DNA of 38,314 nt, from NCBI GenBank assembly GCA_903936565.1, contig CAIZVZ010000005.1, forward strand, positions 1 through 38,314. The letters are read 5' to 3'. Below, one piece after another: positions 3,477 to 30,623 of the stretch; position 1 is the first letter of the stretch; each line of letters opens with the position of its first letter. The notes below the pieces were generated by a model. It saw nothing but the letters and a program-made list of their open reading frames with translations, searched no databases and was not told the DNA's origin. The translations under genes and the position numbers were made by a program. This stretch comes from an uncultured bacterium (GTDB taxonomy: Bacteria > Patescibacteriota > Minisyncoccia > Phycocordibacterales > CAIZLB01).

Positions 3477-4673
3477 ATGAAAATGGAGACAAAAAAGGAG
3501 ATATTTGATAAATACAAAGATAAATACTATGAAGCAAAAGCAGCCTTGGGAAAGAGGAAGGTTTTAACAAAAATAATAGATACTGTCAGGGATGTCACTG
3601 GTATGGGGAGAAAAGCAATCATCCGAGCATTTAATCGCAAGCAAAAGCAAGATCCATGCCATGAAGAAAAACGTGGACGCAAGGTGTACTACAAACCAGA
3701 CGTCACTGCAGCCCTCAAAGATATCTGGGAAATAGGAAGTGAAGTCTGTGGAGAATTATTGCATCCAATGATTAAGGAATATGTCAGTATTCTAATTAAA
3801 GATAAGATGTGGAAACATGGTGATGTTGCAACTGGAAAACTTCTTGCCATGAGCGCGGGTACTGTAAAGAATAGAGTTGGTAATTTCTTGAAAGCAAGAA
3901 GAAAAGGTAGAGGAGTATCTTCAACTTCCCCATCATTGTTGAAACACATCATTCCAATATTTCATGGAGACTGGAATACCAAACCAGTTGGAACTGGTCA
4001 AATTGATACAGTGGTACACTGTGGACACTCTCTGGTTGGAGACTTGGCTTTCACCCTTAATTATACTGATGTATCCACGCTGTGGGTCCTGATGAGGGCA
4101 CAGTGGAACAAGGGACAGCATGCAACGCAAGAGAGCTTGGAATACATCAAATCGAAGTTGCCGTGGCCGATGATTGAGGTGCATCCAGATACAGGAAGTG
4201 AGTTCATCAATTGGTTGATGAAGACCTGGTGTGATTTGAACAATATTAAAATGAGTAGAAGCAGACCTGACCACAAGAATGACAACATGCATGTGGAAGA
4301 AAGAAATGGTCATGTTAACAGAAAGTTTGTTGGGTATATCAGATTGGATTGTATAGAGACTGTTCCAGTATTAAATGATTTGTATGAAGTGCTGTGTCTA
4401 TACCTCAATCACTTTGTCGCATCAAAGCGTGTGATTGAAAAATATGAGATTGATGGAAAGTGGAAGAAGAGGTATGAAAAAGTTGGCAAGACTCCGTATC
4501 AGAGAGTGTTGGAGCATGATGGCATAGATGAGATTATCAAAGAGAAATTAAGACAGGAACATGAAAAACTCAATCCTCTTGTTATGAAGAACGAAATTGA
4601 CCGTCTGAAGAAAGCCGTTTATGATGTACAGAAGAAATACGGGAAAAGCAGAGATTTGGTCAAAATTTCCTAA
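3477..4673 (+). CDS. IS transposase, integrase-core (DDE) family
   Basis: A 398-residue transposase with an N-terminal DNA-binding region and an RNase H-like rve catalytic core. Likely catalytic residues are D177 in GTGQIDTVVHCG, D238 in VHPDTGSEFIN and E274 or E275 in HVEERNGHVNRKFVGY, giving a D-D-E layout. Residues 40-140 carry helix-turn-helix-like segments (MGRKAIIRAF; LAMSAGTVKNRVGNFL). The C-terminus is Lys-rich and alpha-helical, ending near the right inverted repeat. The frame is intact and uninterrupted, so the element could still be active. Two Met codons (3477 and 3483) could start translation; neither has a Shine-Dalgarno. The IS family (IS481- or ISNCY-like) is my inference from the motif pattern. 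Confidence 0.85.
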   Translation: MKMETKKEIFDKYKDKYYEAKAALGKRKVLTKIIDTVRDVTGMGRKAIIRAFNRKQKQDPCHEEKRGRKVYYKPDVTAALKDIWEIGSEVCGELLHPMIKEYVSILIKDKMWKHGDVATGKLLAMSAGTVKNRVGNFLKARRKGRGVSSTSPSLLKHIIPIFHGDWNTKPVGTGQIDTVVHCGHSLVGDLAFTLNYTDVSTLWVLMRAQWNKGQHATQESLEYIKSKLPWPMIEVHPDTGSEFINWLMKTWCDLNNIKMSRSRPDHKNDNMHVEERNGHVNRKFVGYIRLDCIETVPVLNDLYEVLCLYLNHFVASKRVIEKYEIDGKWKKRYEKVGKTPYQRVLEHDGIDEIIKEKLRQEHEKLNPLVMKNEIDRLKKAVYDVQKKYGKSRDLVKIS

Positions 4674-4948: not shown

Positions 4949-5347
4949 ATGTTCAAAAGATTTTTAGATTGGATACACGCAAAGATTTATATAGATTCTC
5001 AACCAAGAACAGGAACAGTTATCAATGAGAGGGAGGTTTATTGGTGTTCTTTGGGTGAAAATGTTGGTGATGAGGAAAACGGAAAGGGTGATGTTTTTCG
5101 TAGGCCTGTTTTAGTGTTCAAAAAATTCAATAACAATATATTTTGGGGAATGCCCATGAGCACCAAAAGCAAAGAAAGTATATATTATATGAAAGTGACA
5201 CTTAAGGATGTAGAACAATCGGTTATACTTTCCCAACTTAGGTTGTTGGACACAAAGAGGTTGGACACAAAAATTGGATTCTTGTCAGAGATAGATTTCT
5301 TAAGAGTTCAAGATTCAATAGTAGATATTATAAGATTTAAACGTTAA
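4949..5347 (+). CDS. PemK/MazF-like toxin (putative mRNA endoribonuclease)
   Basis: The 132-residue protein carries the PemK/MazF-fold signature: VYWCSLGENVGDEENGKGDVFRRPVLVFKK-type strand-loop-strand (about residues 29-58), then FWGMPMSTK, and a hydrophobic strand followed by QLRLLDTKRL near the C-terminus. Family members cleave mRNA or block translation. No antitoxin gene is evident directly upstream or downstream on the same strand, so it is solitary, or its antitoxin has been lost or lies elsewhere. The first 20 residues (MFKRFLDWIHAKIYID) form an extension upstream of the usual toxin start. It lies immediately after the insertion sequence. The name is inferred from motif resemblance. Confidence 0.7.
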   Translation: MFKRFLDWIHAKIYIDSQPRTGTVINEREVYWCSLGENVGDEENGKGDVFRRPVLVFKKFNNNIFWGMPMSTKSKESIYYMKVTLKDVEQSVILSQLRLLDTKRLDTKIGFLSEIDFLRVQDSIVDIIRFKR

Positions 5348-5690: not shown

Positions 5691-5966
5691 TTATTGAGAT
5701 CTTAAATGCTTAATTAATTCTTTGGCACTTTTGAACTCTTTTGACCTTTTGCTATTTTTGTAAGCATCTAATATTTCATCCTCCTGTTCCTTTGTATAAT
5801 TAAAATAGCCATCAGTATTAACCGCAAAAGGTATTCCCCCTGAAACATTAATTTTATTTAGAAATATTCTAAAAGCCGTAGGTAAATCAAGACCTATTCT
5901 ATTTAAAGTCTTTTCAGCATCATTCTTTAATTTAGTATCTACTCTTATTTGAACGTTTGTAGTCAT
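5691..5966 (-). CDS. relB: RelB/DinJ-like antitoxin
   Basis: Ribbon-helix-helix antitoxin. The protein from ATG 5966 (91 aa) begins MTTNVQIRVDTKLKNDAEKTL, the DinJ/RelB N-terminal strand and helix, then GLDLPTAFRIFLNKI and GGIPFAVN. A longer frame starts at 6020 but would overlap the promoter; TATAAT lies exactly 6 nt upstream of the 5966 ATG, so this start is strongly preferred and the mRNA is probably leaderless. It would neutralise the RelE-like toxin encoded 2 nt downstream and repress its own promoter through the palindrome at 5979-6000. The toxin partner is frameshifted. Confidence 0.85.
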   Translation of the reverse strand: MTTNVQIRVDTKLKNDAEKTLNRIGLDLPTAFRIFLNKINVSGGIPFAVNTDGYFNYTKEQEDEILDAYKNSKRSKEFKSAKELIKHLRSQ

Positions 5967-5972
5967 GTCTGT

Positions 5973-6001
5973 ATTATATGCAAAATACATGCATTTTGCA
6001 A
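5973..6001 (-). promoter_or_regulatory. relB promoter with embedded operator
   Basis: On the minus strand TTGCAA is followed after 17 nt by TATAAT, and the ATG begins 6 nt later. The spacer is almost entirely a perfect inverted repeat, TGCAAAAT with ATTTTGCA (5979-6000, 6-nt centre), well placed for autorepression by a ribbon-helix-helix antitoxin. Confidence 0.7.
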
Positions 6002-6075
6002 GCATGATAATAATGACCAAGTTTAAAGCTTAAAATAGCGACTGAGGGCGGCGACATGAGGCAAAGCCTCTTCGT

Positions 6076-7665
6076 CTAGATCTCCTTTATAACCTTAATA
6101 TCCGCACCAATCCCATTCAAACGCTCTGCGATATCCTCATACCCTCTACTAATTGGGTAAATACTCCTCAAGATTGATTTGCCTTTTGCTGCGAGCATGG
6201 CAACCATAATTATCATCGCAGGCCTAAGAGCTAATGGACAAACAATCTGCGCACCCTTAAGTGGAGTCTCCCCTTGAATAAAAACTCTATGAGGATCAGC
6301 AAGATTAATATTTGCCCCAAGCCTATTTAGCTCTGCAAAGTATATCGCCCTATTCTCCCACATCCAATCATGTATTAGAGTTGTACCTTTTGCTTGAGTT
6401 GCGATAGGGACAAAAAATGGCAAATTGTCAGTGTTAATTCCAGGATATGGTTGAGCATGAATTTTATCGATTGGCGCAATGAGTTTTGACGGATAAATTG
6501 TAATATCCACCAATTTTGTTCTACCATTTTTTGCAAGGTAAACTGCGGTCTGCTTATATCTCAATCCCATTTTTTTAAGCTTCAACATTTCAAGGGCCAA
6601 GAAGTCAATTGGGCATCTTGTTATAGTTAGTGTAGATTGCGTAACAACACCAGCAGAAATAAACATCATGGATTCTGTCGGGTCTTCGCTGTTGTAGTAA
6701 TCAATATCCATATTTATCTCGTCGATTCCATGTACAACAAGCGTAGTTGTTCCAATTCCATCAATCTTCACACCCAGTGTCTCTAGAAAAAAACAGACTT
6801 CTTGAACCTGATAATTAGGTGGAGCGAATTGAATAGTTGTCTCCCCTTTTATTAACGATGCCGCCATTACCAAGTTCTCTGCCGCAGTATCGCTAGATTC
6901 TGACATAATAATATGAGCGGGCTTTAGCTTTTTTGATTCAATCAAATAGTGATCTGACTTAGTTTCGATTTTAACACCCAAATCTTCAAGACCATAGCGA
7001 TGAGCTGAGATTGTTCTCTGCCCCATCTTACACCCTCCGGCATGAGGAATTTTGAAAATAGATTCTCTATGAATTAATGGACCAATTATCATAAGACCTG
7101 ATCTAATTCTTCCAGCCGCAACTTGATCCAATTTTTCTACCTTCAGTTTTTTAGGCGCAACAATTTCCAAGGTGTTTTTATCGATCCATTTTATAGAAAC
7201 GCCAATACTCTCCATTAATTCAATGATTCTTTGAACCTCTTCAATTCTTGGAATTCCATGAAGTCTTGTTTTTCCTTTATTTAATAACGATGCGCAAATT
7301 AAACCAAGCGCCCCATTCTTTGAGGTATTAGTTGTTATTGTTCCAGATAATTTTCTTCCACCTTCAATCTCAACATCAATAGAATCAGAAATTGCTACAA
7401 TCTTTCTACCAAGCGCAGCGCTGATTCTATTTAATTCATCCGTCGTCATATTCTGTCCCCCACTTTCAATACGAGCGACAGCACTCTGTGAAGTCTTGAG
7501 TAGTTTCGCAAAATCATTTTGAGTTAGATTTCTATCTTCACGAAGTTTCTTGATAAAGAATCCAAGGTTCTTGTTGCTGTCAGTTCCCGCACTTACTCGT
7601 ACGCCCTTTTTACCAGGCTTACCTGCATCTGTAGTTTTTTCTTTTTTGATTGATGGCATTTTCAT
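6076..7665 (-). CDS. murA: MurA-type enolpyruvyltransferase with N-terminal HTH domain
   Basis: MurA transfers enolpyruvate from PEP to UDP-GlcNAc, the first committed step of peptidoglycan synthesis. Residues 1-30 are a basic tail. Residues about 34-88 form an XRE-type helix-turn-helix (FIKKLREDRNLTQNDFAKLLKTSQSAVARIESG, split across two helices). Residues about 95-529 are the EPSP-synthase fold. Catalytic features are conserved: K116-N117 in TSKNGAL, C212 in AGGCKMGQR (equivalent to E. coli Cys115), R217, D413 in INTDNLPF and R481 in ALRPAM. The usual MurA is about 420 aa; the extra 100 residues are the DNA-binding module. A near-perfect dyad directly upstream suggests autoregulation. The ATG at 7665 is preferred because a -10 hexamer lies 6 nt upstream. 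Confidence 0.88.
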   Translation of the reverse strand: MKMPSIKKEKTTDAGKPGKKGVRVSAGTDSNKNLGFFIKKLREDRNLTQNDFAKLLKTSQSAVARIESGGQNMTTDELNRISAALGRKIVAISDSIDVEIEGGRKLSGTITTNTSKNGALGLICASLLNKGKTRLHGIPRIEEVQRIIELMESIGVSIKWIDKNTLEIVAPKKLKVEKLDQVAAGRIRSGLMIIGPLIHRESIFKIPHAGGCKMGQRTISAHRYGLEDLGVKIETKSDHYLIESKKLKPAHIIMSESSDTAAENLVMAASLIKGETTIQFAPPNYQVQEVCFFLETLGVKIDGIGTTTLVVHGIDEINMDIDYYNSEDPTESMMFISAGVVTQSTLTITRCPIDFLALEMLKLKKMGLRYKQTAVYLAKNGRTKLVDITIYPSKLIAPIDKIHAQPYPGINTDNLPFFVPIATQAKGTTLIHDWMWENRAIYFAELNRLGANINLADPHRVFIQGETPLKGAQIVCPLALRPAMIIMVAMLAAKGKSILRSIYPISRGYEDIAERLNGIGADIKVIKEI

Positions 7666-7666
7666 A

Positions 7667-7699
7667 CATATATCATATACGATATATGGCGAAAATCAA
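7667..7699 (-). promoter_or_regulatory. murA promoter overlapped by a 22-bp dyad
   Basis: On the minus strand TTGATT (7699-7694) and TATGAT (7677-7672) are 16 nt apart, and the ATG follows after 6 nt. Positions 7667-7688 form a dyad of two 11-nt arms (CATATATCATA / CATATATCGTA, 10 of 11 matching) covering the -10 and start region. It is a candidate operator for the HTH domain of the encoded protein; AT-richness lowers its significance. Confidence 0.5.
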
Positions 7700-7757: not shown

Positions 7758-10427
7758 TTATAATTCTTTTGAAATGGCAGCTTGAGTTTTTGGTCCAAAA
7801 TACCCCACAGCCGGTGTAATCTTGTTCGCCTTCTGAAACCTAACAAGTGCAGCTTTTGTTGCAGGGCCAAAGGTTGTATTCTCTCTTCCTTTTGATCCAA
7901 CACCTTTCTTTGATACTGGGAAGCCGTTGTTGTTTAGGAATTGCTGTAGGAGTTTAACATCTAATCCTTTCATGCCAAGCTTGAGATTGCGTGTGAAGGA
8001 AGAGGATGAGAGTATTGAGTTTGTTGGATTTGGTTTGGTTGTAGTCTGTGGAAGTGTATTTGAAGGTATTGTAATACCATACTGCTTTGCTATCTCCCCT
8101 GCTAGGGTGTAGTTACCCATAGCAATTAGGTTGTTGACTTGGCTTTGTGTGCTGCCACCAGAAGAGGAGTGAGATGTTGGAGTAGTGGGTGTGGTGACCG
8201 CTTGTGTGGTTGGTGCAACAGGTGAGATATCAAAGAGTACAGTTGAGTATCCTCCCGTGTAGGTGAAGGTGATTTTGCCATCCTGATCAGCTTGGAGGCT
8301 GGCAAGTGTGGTTGTTCCTGCACTGTTGTGGTTGTAGTTGATGGTGTAGTAGGTGTTAGGTGTTAGATCACCTATTGTGTAGATGGTGGATGTAGCAATT
8401 GATGAAGAAGCTGTGAATTGTTTGCTTGTTCCCCATGTGATGTCTGAGATGTTTAGATATTCTGGACGAGTGGTTGATGCACTATATGTTGGATAACCTC
8501 CCACAGGTGTTACAGAGAGATTGGCAGCTGAGGAAGATGTGGTTGCTGTGGTGTATCTATATTTACCATCTCCGTATATTCTGATGTTGCTTCCGTATTG
8601 TGGGTGATCTGTAGTTATTGTGTATGGTGGTTGATATTCATATGCTCCGATGTCTGGGGTGCCGTAGATGGGGTGGTTGGCGTAGTCTGTGGTGGTGGAG
8701 GTCATCCAGGAGGTGGTGGTACCGGAGTCGATTGCTGGGGAAGTAGCAAGAAGCGAAAAATCACTTCCCGTAGAGTCTGTAAACAAAGGATTTGTATTAA
8801 AAGAATTTTCTTCCCTTGTTGAATGATAAGTATTCCATGTTATGTAACCCGTACCATTTGCCAAATTTGTATAAAATTTATCGCCATATTCAGGATTTTG
8901 ATAATATAAATTTTTATCAAGGTTATTGTGATTTTGACCAACTGTTTCTAGGAACTCAGCTGGATAATTTCCTGATACAATATTATTTCTAACAATGAAA
9001 CCAGGGTTAGCGTTTGTAGTTAGATACAAACCAGCACGGTTCTGTTTAGCTGGATCCAAAGGGCTACCATTATTTACAATAATACTATTGTAAATAAGTC
9101 CACCACTAGAACCGGTATGTGCCATACCAGTATTTTTGTTATTAAAAGACTTAACGTAATAATAATTTGCTGTGCAAGTATTATGAATTGAAAAACCATC
9201 ACCAGTAGCGCTATCGACACCGTTATTATAACCATTAAAACTAGACTCGGTATATCTAATTATCCAACCCTTTGGACAATTATCATCTGTATTTTGAGTA
9301 GCTCCATCGATACCATCGTTTCTGTTATAACTAGCAGTAACATATTCTGTAATTAAATTAGTTGTAGAAGAACCATAAGCTGTGATACCTTGATTTTTAT
9401 TATAACTCGCAGTACCATTTTGAATGGTTAGATTTGAAGCATTAATTATTGTGATTCCATCACCCGTGACTGAACTATTGGCAGTAAAATTTTTTAAAAT
9501 ACTTCCTTCAGTCAAAGTAGAGTTACTTATAAGAATATTTGCTGCACCATTATTACTTGAATAAATTCTGTCAGCATTTAAAGATACATTATTAATACCA
9601 CGTATATATAAACCGATAGCAACACTAGTGCCGGTACCATTACCAGCCGCCACACCCTGTCTCGTGACTCCTGAATATATATTTGTAAGAGATAAATTAC
9701 CAGACGTCATACCATTTATATCTATAACGTTATAATTATCCCCACCACTAATTGCCTCTACGTTATTCAAGGTAACATTTGAGGTAAGTGAAGAATATAT
9801 AGCGCCTCTGTTAGAACCAGATATTGTTGTAGACGAGATAGAAACATCTGTACCTGGCGCATAAAATCCCATAGCAGCTTCATAACCAGAAGCATCAGTA
9901 CTGGAAGACGTAAAATTACTTATAGTAATATAAGAAGAACCAGCACTTGCCCTCAACATACCCTTTCCAGAAATTGAGACGTTGTCAATATTTATATACG
10001 AGGAGCTATTTATATAAATAGTAAAATACATACAATTTCTAACGTTTAAATTTGACAATGAAATATAGTTTTTTGAGTTAGTTTTAACACACTGTTGTAC
10101 AACACCCTGACCATCTATAGTAGCATTCTGAATTATAATTGGGTGACCAGACGTTCCACTGCCGTTTATAATCCAGTTCTCATTAAATGTGTTTCCACCT
10201 CCGTCAACAATATCATCTGGCTGAAGAGTTTTCGCAGCTACTAATGCGGTGAATGTTGTATAGGTTTGCCCGGGTCCAATATTATACGTCGCAGCACTCG
10301 CCTTATCCGCCAATCCAAAAAACAAAAAGCCGAAGCAGAAAAAAACCGTAACGGCCCTTACTCTAAAATTAAAAATTCGCGACAGCCCCCCCCCACTATA
10401 CCTCGATTCATCGAAAAATCTTATCAT
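7758..10427 (-). CDS. Secreted right-handed beta-helix protein with C-terminal peptidoglycan-binding domain
   Basis: 889 residues. A signal peptide (about 24-45, VTVFFCFGFLFFGLADKASA) is followed by a parallel beta-helix (about 48-590) with many N/S/T-rich rungs of the PbH1 type, such as NISLSNLNV-like and ITIINASNLTIQNG repeats. Next come a Ser/Thr-rich segment with a fibronectin-like stretch (about 600-740), a linker with an LIAMGNYTLAGEIAKQYGI helix, and a PG_binding_1 domain (about 812-889, LGMKGLDVKLLQQFL...FGPATKAALVRFQK...GYFGPKTQAAI). It is probably exported by Sec and attached to the wall, presenting a carbohydrate-binding or -cleaving helix; no catalytic residues are evident. A run of nine G's encodes residues 12-14, upstream of the signal peptide. 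A -10-like TACAAT lies 6 nt before the ATG. Confidence 0.85.
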   Translation of the reverse strand: MIRFFDESRYSGGGLSRIFNFRVRAVTVFFCFGFLFFGLADKASAATYNIGPGQTYTTFTALVAAKTLQPDDIVDGGGNTFNENWIINGSGTSGHPIIIQNATIDGQGVVQQCVKTNSKNYISLSNLNVRNCMYFTIYINSSSYINIDNVSISGKGMLRASAGSSYITISNFTSSSTDASGYEAAMGFYAPGTDVSISSTTISGSNRGAIYSSLTSNVTLNNVEAISGGDNYNVIDINGMTSGNLSLTNIYSGVTRQGVAAGNGTGTSVAIGLYIRGINNVSLNADRIYSSNNGAANILISNSTLTEGSILKNFTANSSVTGDGITIINASNLTIQNGTASYNKNQGITAYGSSTTNLITEYVTASYNRNDGIDGATQNTDDNCPKGWIIRYTESSFNGYNNGVDSATGDGFSIHNTCTANYYYVKSFNNKNTGMAHTGSSGGLIYNSIIVNNGSPLDPAKQNRAGLYLTTNANPGFIVRNNIVSGNYPAEFLETVGQNHNNLDKNLYYQNPEYGDKFYTNLANGTGYITWNTYHSTREENSFNTNPLFTDSTGSDFSLLATSPAIDSGTTTSWMTSTTTDYANHPIYGTPDIGAYEYQPPYTITTDHPQYGSNIRIYGDGKYRYTTATTSSSAANLSVTPVGGYPTYSASTTRPEYLNISDITWGTSKQFTASSSIATSTIYTIGDLTPNTYYTINYNHNSAGTTTLASLQADQDGKITFTYTGGYSTVLFDISPVAPTTQAVTTPTTPTSHSSSGGSTQSQVNNLIAMGNYTLAGEIAKQYGITIPSNTLPQTTTKPNPTNSILSSSSFTRNLKLGMKGLDVKLLQQFLNNNGFPVSKKGVGSKGRENTTFGPATKAALVRFQKANKITPAVGYFGPKTQAAISKEL

Positions 10428-26920: not shown

Positions 26921-29900
26921 CTACAACCCCCTACCCACCCCCTGAATCAACTCAGAAAGAGCATCGTGAATTTCTATATATAACAAAATCTCTTCTCTAA
27001 TTTCCGTCTGACGTTTACTTAGTGTTTGAACTTTTTTGTTCGTGCTGAGGAAATTATTAAGAGAATAGAAATTTCGTTCTTTGTTGTACTTTAGTATTAA
27101 CTTAGAAACCGTATCCATATTAGATTCCAGAATTCCATAGAATGAATTTAGTATGTTCAACGATTGTAATACACCAGTTTTTTGATACTTTCTTTTTGCA
27201 ATATCTATTTTTTCTATATATTTATCTGCTAAATACACCGACGATGAAAAGAATGAAGATATAGTCGAAGTGGATACCTGGATAGTTACAGAGAGGGTTG
27301 ATGTTGAAGACGTGGATACCGCGTATCTAATTCTCTCTTTCGCTTTTTCAAATAATTCATCAATTGATTCTCTGTTTAAACTATCACCTAAATCAGTTGA
27401 TGTTCCAGTCGTTGTGCTGGTATTAATTTGAATAGGTTTAATACCCTTATCGATTAGACCGTCACCGTTGTTATCAACAGAAATTGTTGTTGTTGAATAA
27501 TTAATATCAATGTTTGTGGCTGGAGTCACAGAAATATTTGGGTAAATTATTTCAGTACCGTCCATTTTTGTAACAATCTGCGCAACACCCACAGCAGAGC
27601 CTTGACCAAAAAAATTTATGTTACTGCCCATCACTCCACCTTGAGATTCTTCACTACCCCCTGAGCTACCACCATACACTACGGAAACAATTCCCGACCT
27701 GTTACCATCAGAATAATTAGTGTAATTCACTACTCTGTTTTCCAAATTCAGCTGATCAAACGGCTTGTTCTGCAAATCAGCAATTGTCTGAAAATTAGGA
27801 GTTAGTATTATTGGACCATATGCATCGACAATCAAAATTTTACTATTATTGAATCTATTTACAAAATCAGAATCGGACGCATCATCAGAAATTTTTGATA
27901 TTCCCGAAAGAACCGATGAATCACCGTAACTCCCCAAAATTGGGCCGGGTTTAGAAAGCGAACCCGACACATAAGAAACGTAAGGACTTGAAAGTAGACC
28001 GAACGAATTCACCATATCACCCTCTTTTTTTGACCTACTTAATATTGCATGAACAATATCCCTGACTCCTGAAGATCTAAATATATCTTTATGCGCAATG
28101 GGATCTTCTCTAAAGAATGCGGGAGCAGTCTTTTTCACTTCATTCTCTTTACCAATATCGACTGTAAAAACAGAGCCTGTCCTTTCTGCTAAATTGTGCG
28201 CAACAACAACACCATCCCCCATCAAGGAATACTTCCTGGTAAAATCAGGAAGAACAACGTTGTTGGTAAAGCAAAAAAGTAAACCGCGGCACTTTGGTTT
28301 AATAAAATTCATTCCAGCAAGAGTAGGTATTCCAACAGGAACGATAGAATAGGTCTTACCAGACAGCGCTGACGAATAATTATCGATTGAATCATGTTCA
28401 GAATTTGCCTTATTAAGCACAAAATCATTCATCGAGAAATTGATGTTTTTGTTTTTCAGAAAGCCATTCAGTAATGGAAATGAATCGACTTTACTAGCCC
28501 CTAGCTTAAATTGAGAAACCGTCCAATCATCAAAGCTAATTATATTTTTCTGATTATAAGCACCACTTGATTCAGTAAAATATGAGTTAGAAGGCAAAAG
28601 CAAATGCACAGAGGACATATTCCTAGCAAGCCCCACCGCCGTTTTCTTGGTCAAAATCAAACCACCAAGCAGATCCTGATTATCACCATAAAGTATCGCT
28701 GGTATTGATTGTGGAGTCCCATACTCCGGTACAGAGACTAGAACAGAAGATTCAATCAAGGAATCATTTCCCTCTTTTTCCAAATCCTCCATAAGAGCCT
28801 TTGCGAGTAGACCTCCATAGCTATGGGCAATAACAATAACCTTACCTGATGGCGACTTATCAGCCATCTCTTTAATTTTATTCTTCAACATCAGCGTGTA
28901 TGAATTCATCTTAATTCCTGAAATGAGTATGTCGGATGGTAAAAATCGCCAATCATATGAGAGCGTCTGAAAGTCAGCAATATTTCCATCTGCCTTTTCT
29001 CGAAACAACAAATCCACCAGACTTTGATAAATATCAATCGAACCAACAGGTCCCAAGAAATTTGTTTTAGTAATAATATCTCTGGTGTAAATCCTAGTAT
29101 CCAAGCTTATGCCGTTGGAATTGAGAAATAGACTCTCCACATCAGCATTCCTATTAGGCTCCCATAATTGATTTTCAGTACCGAGAACCCCATTCCGATA
29201 CAATCTACTTCCTTGAATCCCTGGGATAAATAATACCGAGGAACAACATGGTGAAGATTCTTTAAATGGAACCGCGGAGAACGGAATACTTATCACTCCC
29301 TGAGAATAATCTTCTATTCCGTTTTGATTTCTAATTACATTTGCATAATCATCGGCAGTGTAATTATCATTAGAGCCTAGCGTCGACAAATCGGTTGACT
29401 TAGGACCACTGGCGTTCCCCCACCAATTATCCTTAAAATCAGAAAATGGGCTAAAATTAATAACAACATCACCATTACTCGAAAAATTATTCTGATTAAT
29501 CTTAAAATTACCATTACCACTCAAATTAAAACCGATAAAACATGGACCGATATCAGAGCCTAAAACATTAAGGGTGGTATTAGAAAATCCTTCAATGCAA
29601 GTACCGGAGCTAAAGCTTGAGAGCGACAGAGGTTTTGCAGAAATTGATGATTTCTGAAAGTTTAAGACACTGCCAGAGAAAACATTTATTCCAGAGTTTA
29701 TCTTGACGTCGTTTATTTTTGTCCTATGCACAGCGAGAATGGAGTTTTTAAAAATATCTGCAAACGTATTTCCTGAATAATTATTAATATTCGTTCTATA
29801 CAGCACAGCTCGACTGTCATTTGAATAAAAGGCATTTGACCCTTCAATTTTTATATTATTGATATTGGTTTCAAAAAGGTTAATTTTAGACTTCTTATAT

Positions 29901-30535
29901 AACCCCACCAAAGTTCTTTGTAAATCCACTCCGGCTGGGCCTTGAATATCAATTTTTCTGCCATTAACCACCCCAGCATTATTTATATAGAAAAGATTTT
30001 CATATCCGGATCCTGATATAGATATTTGAGTTGATAGCAAACCCAATACTTTGTATGGCGAGGATGAGTACAATCCGTCAATTATCGCCAGACTAGATGA
30101 TGCGCTAAGTGTTGCGCTACTTAATAAATTCAGACTATACAAAATATCACCAGACGTCGAAATCTTAAATGGATTTGAAATTGGATCAAAATCGTAATTC
30201 GCTTTTTTAGCTATAGTTTCCGAACCGATATTAAGTACTCCCCCATTCACGTAAAATGAACCGTTATCAATTATATCCACAACAGCACCGTTCTCGATAC
30301 TCAAGGATGAACCAGATGAAATTGTTACAACGGCAGAGACCTTGTATTCATAATCAGCTGGCCAAAATTGATGGTCGGTGATTATAAATGGAGTATCAAT
30401 AACCTTTATGAGTTTTGTGCCACCATCAGGTGCACCACCAGACGCAGCCCTCACTACATCAGCATCAAAAACAATACTTGTGATTATTAAAATTAAAACA
30501 GCTAGTTTTACCAACAAATTATATCTTTTATTCAT
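26921..30535 (-). CDS. Large secreted beta-helix / LCAT-like lipase protein
   Basis: 1204 residues from ATG 30535 (numbering below is from a GTG two codons upstream). Signal peptide about 10-33. Residues about 50-400 form beta-solenoid rungs ending in the DNWWGNASGP motif (371-380). An alpha/beta-hydrolase of the lecithin:cholesterol acyltransferase family follows: PGIQGS (440-445, oxyanion loop), YDWR (529-532, an LCAT hallmark), nucleophile S574 in AHSYGG, likely acid D776 in MGDGVV and likely base H817. Near residue 1000 DNNGDGLID looks like a calcium-binding loop; the C-terminus is coiled-coil-like. It probably acts on lipids or esters outside the cell; such an enzyme could help a small symbiont obtain host lipids (inference). 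-10 TATACT lies 7 nt before the ATG. Confidence 0.8.
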   Translation of the reverse strand: MNKRYNLLVKLAVLILIITSIVFDADVVRAASGGAPDGGTKLIKVIDTPFIITDHQFWPADYEYKVSAVVTISSGSSLSIENGAVVDIIDNGSFYVNGGVLNIGSETIAKKANYDFDPISNPFKISTSGDILYSLNLLSSATLSASSSLAIIDGLYSSSPYKVLGLLSTQISISGSGYENLFYINNAGVVNGRKIDIQGPAGVDLQRTLVGLYKKSKINLFETNINNIKIEGSNAFYSNDSRAVLYRTNINNYSGNTFADIFKNSILAVHRTKINDVKINSGINVFSGSVLNFQKSSISAKPLSLSSFSSGTCIEGFSNTTLNVLGSDIGPCFIGFNLSGNGNFKINQNNFSSNGDVVINFSPFSDFKDNWWGNASGPKSTDLSTLGSNDNYTADDYANVIRNQNGIEDYSQGVISIPFSAVPFKESSPCCSSVLFIPGIQGSRLYRNGVLGTENQLWEPNRNADVESLFLNSNGISLDTRIYTRDIITKTNFLGPVGSIDIYQSLVDLLFREKADGNIADFQTLSYDWRFLPSDILISGIKMNSYTLMLKNKIKEMADKSPSGKVIVIAHSYGGLLAKALMEDLEKEGNDSLIESSVLVSVPEYGTPQSIPAILYGDNQDLLGGLILTKKTAVGLARNMSSVHLLLPSNSYFTESSGAYNQKNIISFDDWTVSQFKLGASKVDSFPLLNGFLKNKNINFSMNDFVLNKANSEHDSIDNYSSALSGKTYSIVPVGIPTLAGMNFIKPKCRGLLFCFTNNVVLPDFTRKYSLMGDGVVVAHNLAERTGSVFTVDIGKENEVKKTAPAFFREDPIAHKDIFRSSGVRDIVHAILSRSKKEGDMVNSFGLLSSPYVSYVSGSLSKPGPILGSYGDSSVLSGISKISDDASDSDFVNRFNNSKILIVDAYGPIILTPNFQTIADLQNKPFDQLNLENRVVNYTNYSDGNRSGIVSVVYGGSSGGSEESQGGVMGSNINFFGQGSAVGVAQIVTKMDGTEIIYPNISVTPATNIDINYSTTTISVDNNGDGLIDKGIKPIQINTSTTTGTSTDLGDSLNRESIDELFEKAKERIRYAVSTSSTSTLSVTIQVSTSTISSFFSSSVYLADKYIEKIDIAKRKYQKTGVLQSLNILNSFYGILESNMDTVSKLILKYNKERNFYSLNNFLSTNKKVQTLSKRQTEIREEILLYIEIHDALSELIQGVGRGL

Positions 30536-30623
30536 ACGCACAAGTATAAATAAACAACATAATGCCTCTATAAATATTTTATAGAGAATTGCAGAAGATT
30601 GTTTATAGACTACTTTTTTATTT

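Follow-up and report, generated by a model that had tools for sequence, protein, structure and literature searches.

The MurA of the bacterium studied here carries a DNA-binding domain at its N-terminus, and this HTH-MurA is very probably a bifunctional enzyme-repressor of the BirA/PutA kind, which would bind an operator at its own gene and repress it; this judgement covers binding and repression, and leaves ligand sensing aside. The gene lies in the window, i.e., the whole stretch of 38,314 nucleotides that was analysed. At the level of sequence, comparison with homologues demonstrates the fusion, the conservation of the catalytic residues and of the operator, the joint loss of HTH and operator, the covariation of one residue with one base, and the presence of operators at other mur genes. 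The gene and its protein comprise the following features:

6076..7665, minus strand: murA, encoding the HTH-MurA fusion of 529 aa; ORF with an ATG start, stop codon included.
7399..7581, minus strand: N-terminal XRE/HTH_3 domain, residues 29-89 (Pfam HTH_3 and AlphaFold2 helices).
7465..7494, minus strand: recognition-helix stretch T58-S59-Q60-S61-A62-V63-A64-R65-I66-E67 (alignment, AlphaFold2 and covariation).
7489-7491, minus strand: codon of S59, the residue covarying with operator base 5.
6085..7374, minus strand: MurA (enolpyruvyl transferase) domain, residues 98-527 (Pfam, NCBIfam, Foldseek and phmmer).
7030-7032, minus strand: codon of the catalytic C212.

Pfam places HTH_3 at residues 38-89 of the 529-aa ORF (E 1.4e-11) and EPSP_synthase (PF00275) at residues 101-516, in agreement with the preliminary description, which had recognized an XRE-type HTH at the N-terminus of a catalytically complete MurA. 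K116, N117, C212, D413 and R481, the residues on which that description relied, are all present in the MurA domain and invariant in 146 fused homologues. The AlphaFold2 model, built with 47 family members, has a confident HTH (residues 29-89; helices 29-44, 49-55, 60-67 and 75-85, with mostly high pLDDT), a weak linker (residues 90-93) and a confident MurA domain; Foldseek retrieves MurA structures with this model, the best match being 5ujs (E 3.4e-40), and phmmer relates the protein to canonical MurA with an E of 1.2e-62. Pfam, the residue alignment and AlphaFold2 therefore concur on a single chain that joins a DNA-binding domain to an intact enzyme domain. As for its family, the protein passes the NCBIfam NF006873 MurA cut-off (337 bits, cut-off 297) and fails that of the TIGR01072 murA equivalog (321.2 vs 392.7 bits); judged by these profiles, it belongs to a divergent subfamily, and we call it a member of the MurA family and not a certified equivalog. 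No other PF00275 protein occurs in the window's genome (G000; about 1.04 Mb, 98.4% complete).

The HTH has weak sequence similarity to proteins in the PDB (best match E 6e-4). Its reading as part of a toxin-antitoxin pair was rejected: the score against TIGR03070 (Y4mF/HipB-type antitoxin) is 41 bits for a cut-off of 71.65, the domain is joined to MurA, and the nearby RelB-like and PemK-like ORFs are genes of their own. These lie on opposite strands, the PemK/MazF-like toxin ORF at 4949-5347 (plus) and the RelB/DinJ-like antitoxin ORF at 5691-6020 (minus), and a transposase-like ORF occupies 3477-4673. Directly upstream of murA is an 889-aa beta-helix protein with a C-terminal peptidoglycan-binding domain (7758-10427, minus strand); farther away, a 1206-aa protein has an LCAT-like domain (26921-30541, minus strand).

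A scan of genome contigs returned 71 loci, nearly all from Patescibacteria (among them Zambryskibacteria, Uhrbacteria, Jorgensenbacteria, Yanofskybacteria, Campbellbacteria, Nomurabacteria and others), and whole-genome searches gave further ones. The non-redundant set has 203 proteins, 148 of which contain the HTH according to a purpose-built HTH profile, and many proteins of the same MurA family are devoid of it; operators were counted on 200 non-redundant homologues, 147 HTH-MurA and 53 HTH-less MurA. In the alignment, K116, N117, R188, C212, R217, D328, D413, R439, R481 and R507 show no variation among 146 fused and 53 unfused proteins; we take this set to correspond to K22, N23, R91, C115, R120, D231, D305, R331, R371 and R397 in E. 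coli numbering. Regarding the recognition helix, Q60, S61 and R65 are near-invariant in the fused homologues, and the helix covaries with the operator; an HTH devoid of DNA-contact residues, which would have counted against the preliminary description, is thus not what the homologues show. Finally, the linker between HTH and MurA is very short in the window protein, and E67 and K116 are 49-51 residues apart in 145 of the 147 fused proteins; such a near-fixed linker points to a set placement of the HTH with respect to MurA.

The region upstream of murA contains the following elements:

7667..7688, minus strand: 22-bp dyad upstream of murA (inverted-repeat search, homologue comparison and shuffles).
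7669-7686, read on the minus strand: conserved operator core of 18 bp, TATATC-GTATAT-GATATA.
7672..7699, minus strand: likely murA promoter (consensus match and family profile).
7699-7694, minus strand: murA -35, TTGATT, with a 16-nt spacer to the -10.
7677-7672, minus strand: murA -10, TATGAT, inside the dyad.

The dyad, already described as a 22-bp repeat with 10 of 11 arm matches, was found again as two arms of 11 nt (7667-7677 and 7678-7688) that are 91% complementary and have no spacer; its core is an 18-bp palindrome of the form TATATC-N6-GATATA, overlapping the -10 region of murA. Of the earlier statement that it covers both the -10 and the start codon, the first half stands, and the second needs amendment: the dyad stops one base before the ATG (7665-7663). 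Within the 38-kb window the core has no other match at two mismatches or fewer, and none occurs in 100 shuffles; a chance palindrome is ruled out by the shuffles of the window and of the homologues' upstream regions. The murA transcript is probably leaderless because the ATG is about 7 nt past the -10, the exact register of which is uncertain, the family profile placing TATAnT five bases farther on than TATGAT. A generic promoter scan found promoter-like sites in the window to be no commoner than in shuffles, so that the murA promoter call rests on the family profile.

TATATC-N6-GATATA recurs just upstream of the fused genes, in regions that are otherwise unconserved. With a relaxed operator (TATANC-N6-GNTATA, at least 9 of the 10 fixed bases), a site occurs within about 150 nt upstream (159-nt window) in 126 of the 147 fused genes vs 2 of the 53 HTH-less ones (Fisher 6e-28), and in about 2% of dinucleotide-shuffled upstream regions. 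Extension to 230 nt raises the fused count to 130/147, including G400, whose operator is 208 nt from the match start, and leaves the HTH-less count at 2/53 (L050 and L202). At this threshold and in this 230-nt window 17 fused genes have no operator; it is also missing upstream of L095 and L157, both fused, whose helix motif is not recognized. On a FastTree phylogeny of the MurA domains, used for independent contrasts, HTH presence changes 21 times; across 17 independent pairs on supported branches, HTH and operator are concordant in 13 on average and almost never discordant (0; p 2.4e-4). A likelihood-ratio test of their correlated evolution gives p 7e-19, with the reservation that the test was purpose-written and that both FastTree and the asymptotic chi-square are approximations. 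By these comparisons, the HTH and the palindrome are evidently lost together. The preliminary description had suggested that the dyad should be conserved upstream of HTH-MurA homologues and that MurA could repress its own synthesis; the former is borne out by the counts above, and the latter, autoregulation, is strongly supported by them together with the covariation of helix and operator. It should be noted that the operator consensus and residue 59 were picked post hoc, a bias that the controls and the phylogenetic tests lessen and do not remove.

As for specificity, the residue that precedes Q-S in the helix (S59 in the window) tracks base 5 of each half-site. Sites paired with Ser at this position lack G at base 5 in 87 cases (mostly T or C) and have it in 4, while Thr is paired with G in 31 sites and with another base in one; Ser accordingly goes with TATA[T/C]C and Thr with TATAGC, and Ala (L043, L045) and Lys (L052, L054) are found mostly with TATAAC. 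The exceptions are L238, L247, L262 and L103 (Ser with G at base 5), L261 (Thr with TATCTC as left and GCTATA as right half-site), and L049 and L239 (Ala with TATATC/TATCTC). A tree-aware likelihood-ratio test of Ser/Thr against base 5 gives p 4e-7; supported independent Ser/Thr contrasts number only 4, about 3 of them concordant, so the code rests on few events. On the FastTree phylogeny, Thr with TATAGC arises within Ser/TATATC groups (L104, L210/L212); the Thr group in turn contains renewed cases of Ser with TATATC or TATCTC (L229/L233/L230/L237, L214/L250). The fused HTH itself is the likely reader of the operator, because residue 59 tracks base 5 and because L095 and L157, without the helix motif, lack the site.

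The dyad could instead be an AT-rich extended -10 or leaderless promoter element and nothing else, the HTH having another target or none. In the site-aligned profile a -10-like TATAnT does lie within the right half of the operator, and the start codon follows closely: the first in-frame one is 8-11 nt past the operator in 43 of 98 cases, the most frequent spacing, which suggests leaderless transcripts across the fused family. However, the same profile shows conservation of both half-sites and of the centre, and not of the positions 5' of the operator; the right half is no better conserved than the centre and the left half, TATATC. Moreover, only 2/53 HTH-less genes have the site, one half-site base that is not part of the -10 changes with the recognition helix, and the palindrome recurs at other mur genes. 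Given the left half, the dependence on the HTH and the covariation, a promoter element was rejected as the sole explanation, and we consider this account very improbable.

Through copies of this operator, HTH-MurA would also control a small number of other cell-wall genes, which the preliminary description did not foresee. The strict site was found in 11 of 40 genomes chosen for having the fusion and in 2 of 40 chosen for lacking HTH-MurA, in the latter with off-consensus centres; outside the window's genus the strict pattern mostly marks murA alone. The window's genome has three operators, at murA, C1:115517 and C13:2673, and in its genus the predicted further targets are a PF00144 hydrolase/Mur-ligase cluster and a locus for a small membrane protein. 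The C1:115517 operator is 98 nt upstream of a PF00144 beta-lactamase/DD-peptidase-like gene, a position kept in the sister genomes G003 and G004; this gene is followed by the sole Mur ligase found in the genome, which is nearest to Mpl and then to MurC, below both cut-offs. RRF, an M50 protease, MreB, MreC and PBPs come next on the same strand. The cell-wall and shape cluster at L303:616-18992 (G000 C1) holds MraZ, MraW, two PBPs, MreC, MreB, the Mur ligase, the PF00144 hydrolase and an ABC transporter.

The C13:2673 operator lies beyond a D-Ala-D-Ala carboxypeptidase-like gene and is followed by a conserved leader of about 200-300 nt and by a 75-aa ORF, an arrangement present in 6/6 genomes of the window's genus. 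The leader (L187:2714-2985 in G000 C13, and likewise L178, L180, L182, L184 and L185) is a candidate structured leader or small RNA, with a GGGGGGAU/AUCCCCC stem around two hairpins and some compensatory changes in the second hairpin among the 6 sequences; Rfam returned no match for it. In the Thr-type genomes G465 and G561, TATAGC operators are 8-9 nt before murC, and murC and murD (named from sequence, not by family scan) adjoin the operator; in G566, also of the Thr group, a TATAGC operator precedes a 70-aa ORF with 31% identity to the 75-aa ORF. These 70-75-aa small membrane-like proteins (L187:2986-3213; L287:1095-1307, minus strand) are uncharacterized and have an HTH-MurA operator upstream in both distant clades. 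The predicted targets of distant clades are thus alike, while the operator base is particular to each clade.

The position of these sites bears on the sign of the regulation, given that HTH-MurA might be an activator at some or all of them. Such a role would suit the C13:2673-type operator of the window's genus, which is just upstream of a TTGACA -35 (TAAAAT -10 17 nt on), where activation is possible and repression is less obvious. Yet repressors usually bind over the -10 or the -35/-10 spacer, and the operator overlaps one or the other at murA, at the PF00144 gene and in front of murC in G465 and G561; activation is accordingly an unlikely reading.

The remainder of the peptidoglycan pathway was surveyed in the same genome. 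MurA, RodA/FtsW, PBPs, MreB, MreC and the single Mpl/MurC-like ligase are present, and PF02873, the C-terminal domain of MurB, has no match in this assembly (98.4% complete, 21 contigs); the pathway is a candidate for being incomplete or unusual, although MurB may be too divergent to be matched or may lie in a stretch missing from the assembly. If the absence is real, the product of MurA would meet an unusual fate in this organism. Among the 15 family genomes searched, 7 (G006 and G008-G013, most above 90% complete) have no PF00275 protein, so murA appears to be absent near a lineage that would regulate it.

In the enzyme-repressor model, the C-terminal MurA would be an active UDP-GlcNAc enolpyruvyl transferase, and the HTHs of two HTH-MurA molecules would bind both half-sites of TATATC-N6-GATATA, with S59 of the recognition helix reading base 5. 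With 12 bp, or about one helical turn, between the centres of the half-sites, two HTHs can lie on much the same face of the DNA; since descriptions of MurA usually have it as a monomer, dimeric binding is an assumption of the model. Because the site overlaps the -10, bound HTH-MurA should block RNA polymerase and hence murA transcription, which would place the only murA of the cell under negative feedback. We infer binding, dimeric binding, repression and catalytic activity alike.

Whether the enzyme domain also governs DNA binding is a separate matter. HTH-MurA may be a plain concentration-dependent autorepressor that binds DNA irrespective of ligands and whose MurA domain senses nothing, an account with close to an even chance of being right: simple negative autoregulation fully explains the single dedicated operator usual outside the window's genus, and the catalytic residues are all as in ordinary MurA; being equally expected of a plain enzyme, they lend nothing to the sensing of PEP or UDP-GlcNAc through the active site that the preliminary description put forward. 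Against it, the near-fixed spacing of 49-51 residues between E67 and K116 hints at a mechanical coupling of HTH and MurA. DNA binding by BirA and PutA is controlled by ligands. These analogues of HTH-MurA are bifunctional enzyme-repressors (PMC6978683), which also speaks against a MurA domain without a sensory role. Ligand control is plausible because MurA closes on UDP-GlcNAc and E. coli MurA binds UDP-MurNAc tightly; that DNA binding is tuned by the ligand state of MurA (UDP-GlcNAc, PEP or UDP-MurNAc) is speculative. In its broadest form, which we advance tentatively and rate somewhat short of an even chance, MurA, an essential and active cell-wall enzyme, would itself be a ligand-responsive transcription factor for cell-wall precursor genes over much of Patescibacteria: its occupancy by substrate or product (UDP-GlcNAc/PEP or UDP-MurNAc) would set the affinity of the HTH for murA and, in some lineages, for murC and other targets, and the one-residue/one-base code would let each lineage retune its operator.

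MurA catalyzes the first committed step of peptidoglycan synthesis and is the target of fosfomycin; to our knowledge, it is not known as a transcription factor anywhere, and, as far as we know, little has been learned about the control of cell-wall synthesis in bacteria whose genomes are tiny and hold few regulators. Here the enzyme and the gene switch appear to be one molecule across Patescibacteria. A regulator, its operator, the residue that determines its specificity and further targets were predicted from sequence across more than 100 genomes, and this prediction lends itself to direct tests on short DNA with the purified protein. In addition, the natural series of HTH-operator pairs and the repeated natural losses of the HTH are useful to study how enzymes become regulators (compare BzdR, PMC3602430). 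No description of HTH-MurA was found in the titles and abstracts of the openly licensed literature.

Regarding known systems, HTH-MurA has the fold and the active site of canonical MurA (E. coli, C. jejuni), from which it differs by the N-terminal HTH of about 60 residues and by the operator at its own gene. With XRE-like repressors (YdaT, the C proteins of restriction-modification systems, and the HipB/Y4mF antitoxins) it shares the helix-turn-helix fold, and with YdaT also a palindrome with an N6 spacer, TTGATT-N6-AATCAA in the latter (PMC9986795); these are standalone regulators or antitoxins, whereas the HTH described here is fused to MurA and only weakly similar in sequence. BzdR from Azoarcus, which regulates benzoate degradation, is built in a similar way: its N-terminal XRE HTH is joined to a domain of an enzyme type from small-molecule metabolism, in its case a shikimate-kinase-like domain that has lost catalysis (PMC3602430). 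In HTH-MurA, instead, no catalytic residue varies among 146 homologues, and the window's genome has no MurA other than the fusion. The nearest working analogues are the "trigger enzymes" BirA (biotin ligase and repressor of the biotin operon) and PutA (proline dehydrogenase and put repressor), in which one polypeptide combines a DNA-binding and a catalytic domain and represses genes of its own pathway (PMC6978683), as HTH-MurA is predicted to do. Unlike them, HTH-MurA pertains to another enzyme and pathway, MurA and peptidoglycan, and its operator follows a one-residue/one-base code across many lineages.
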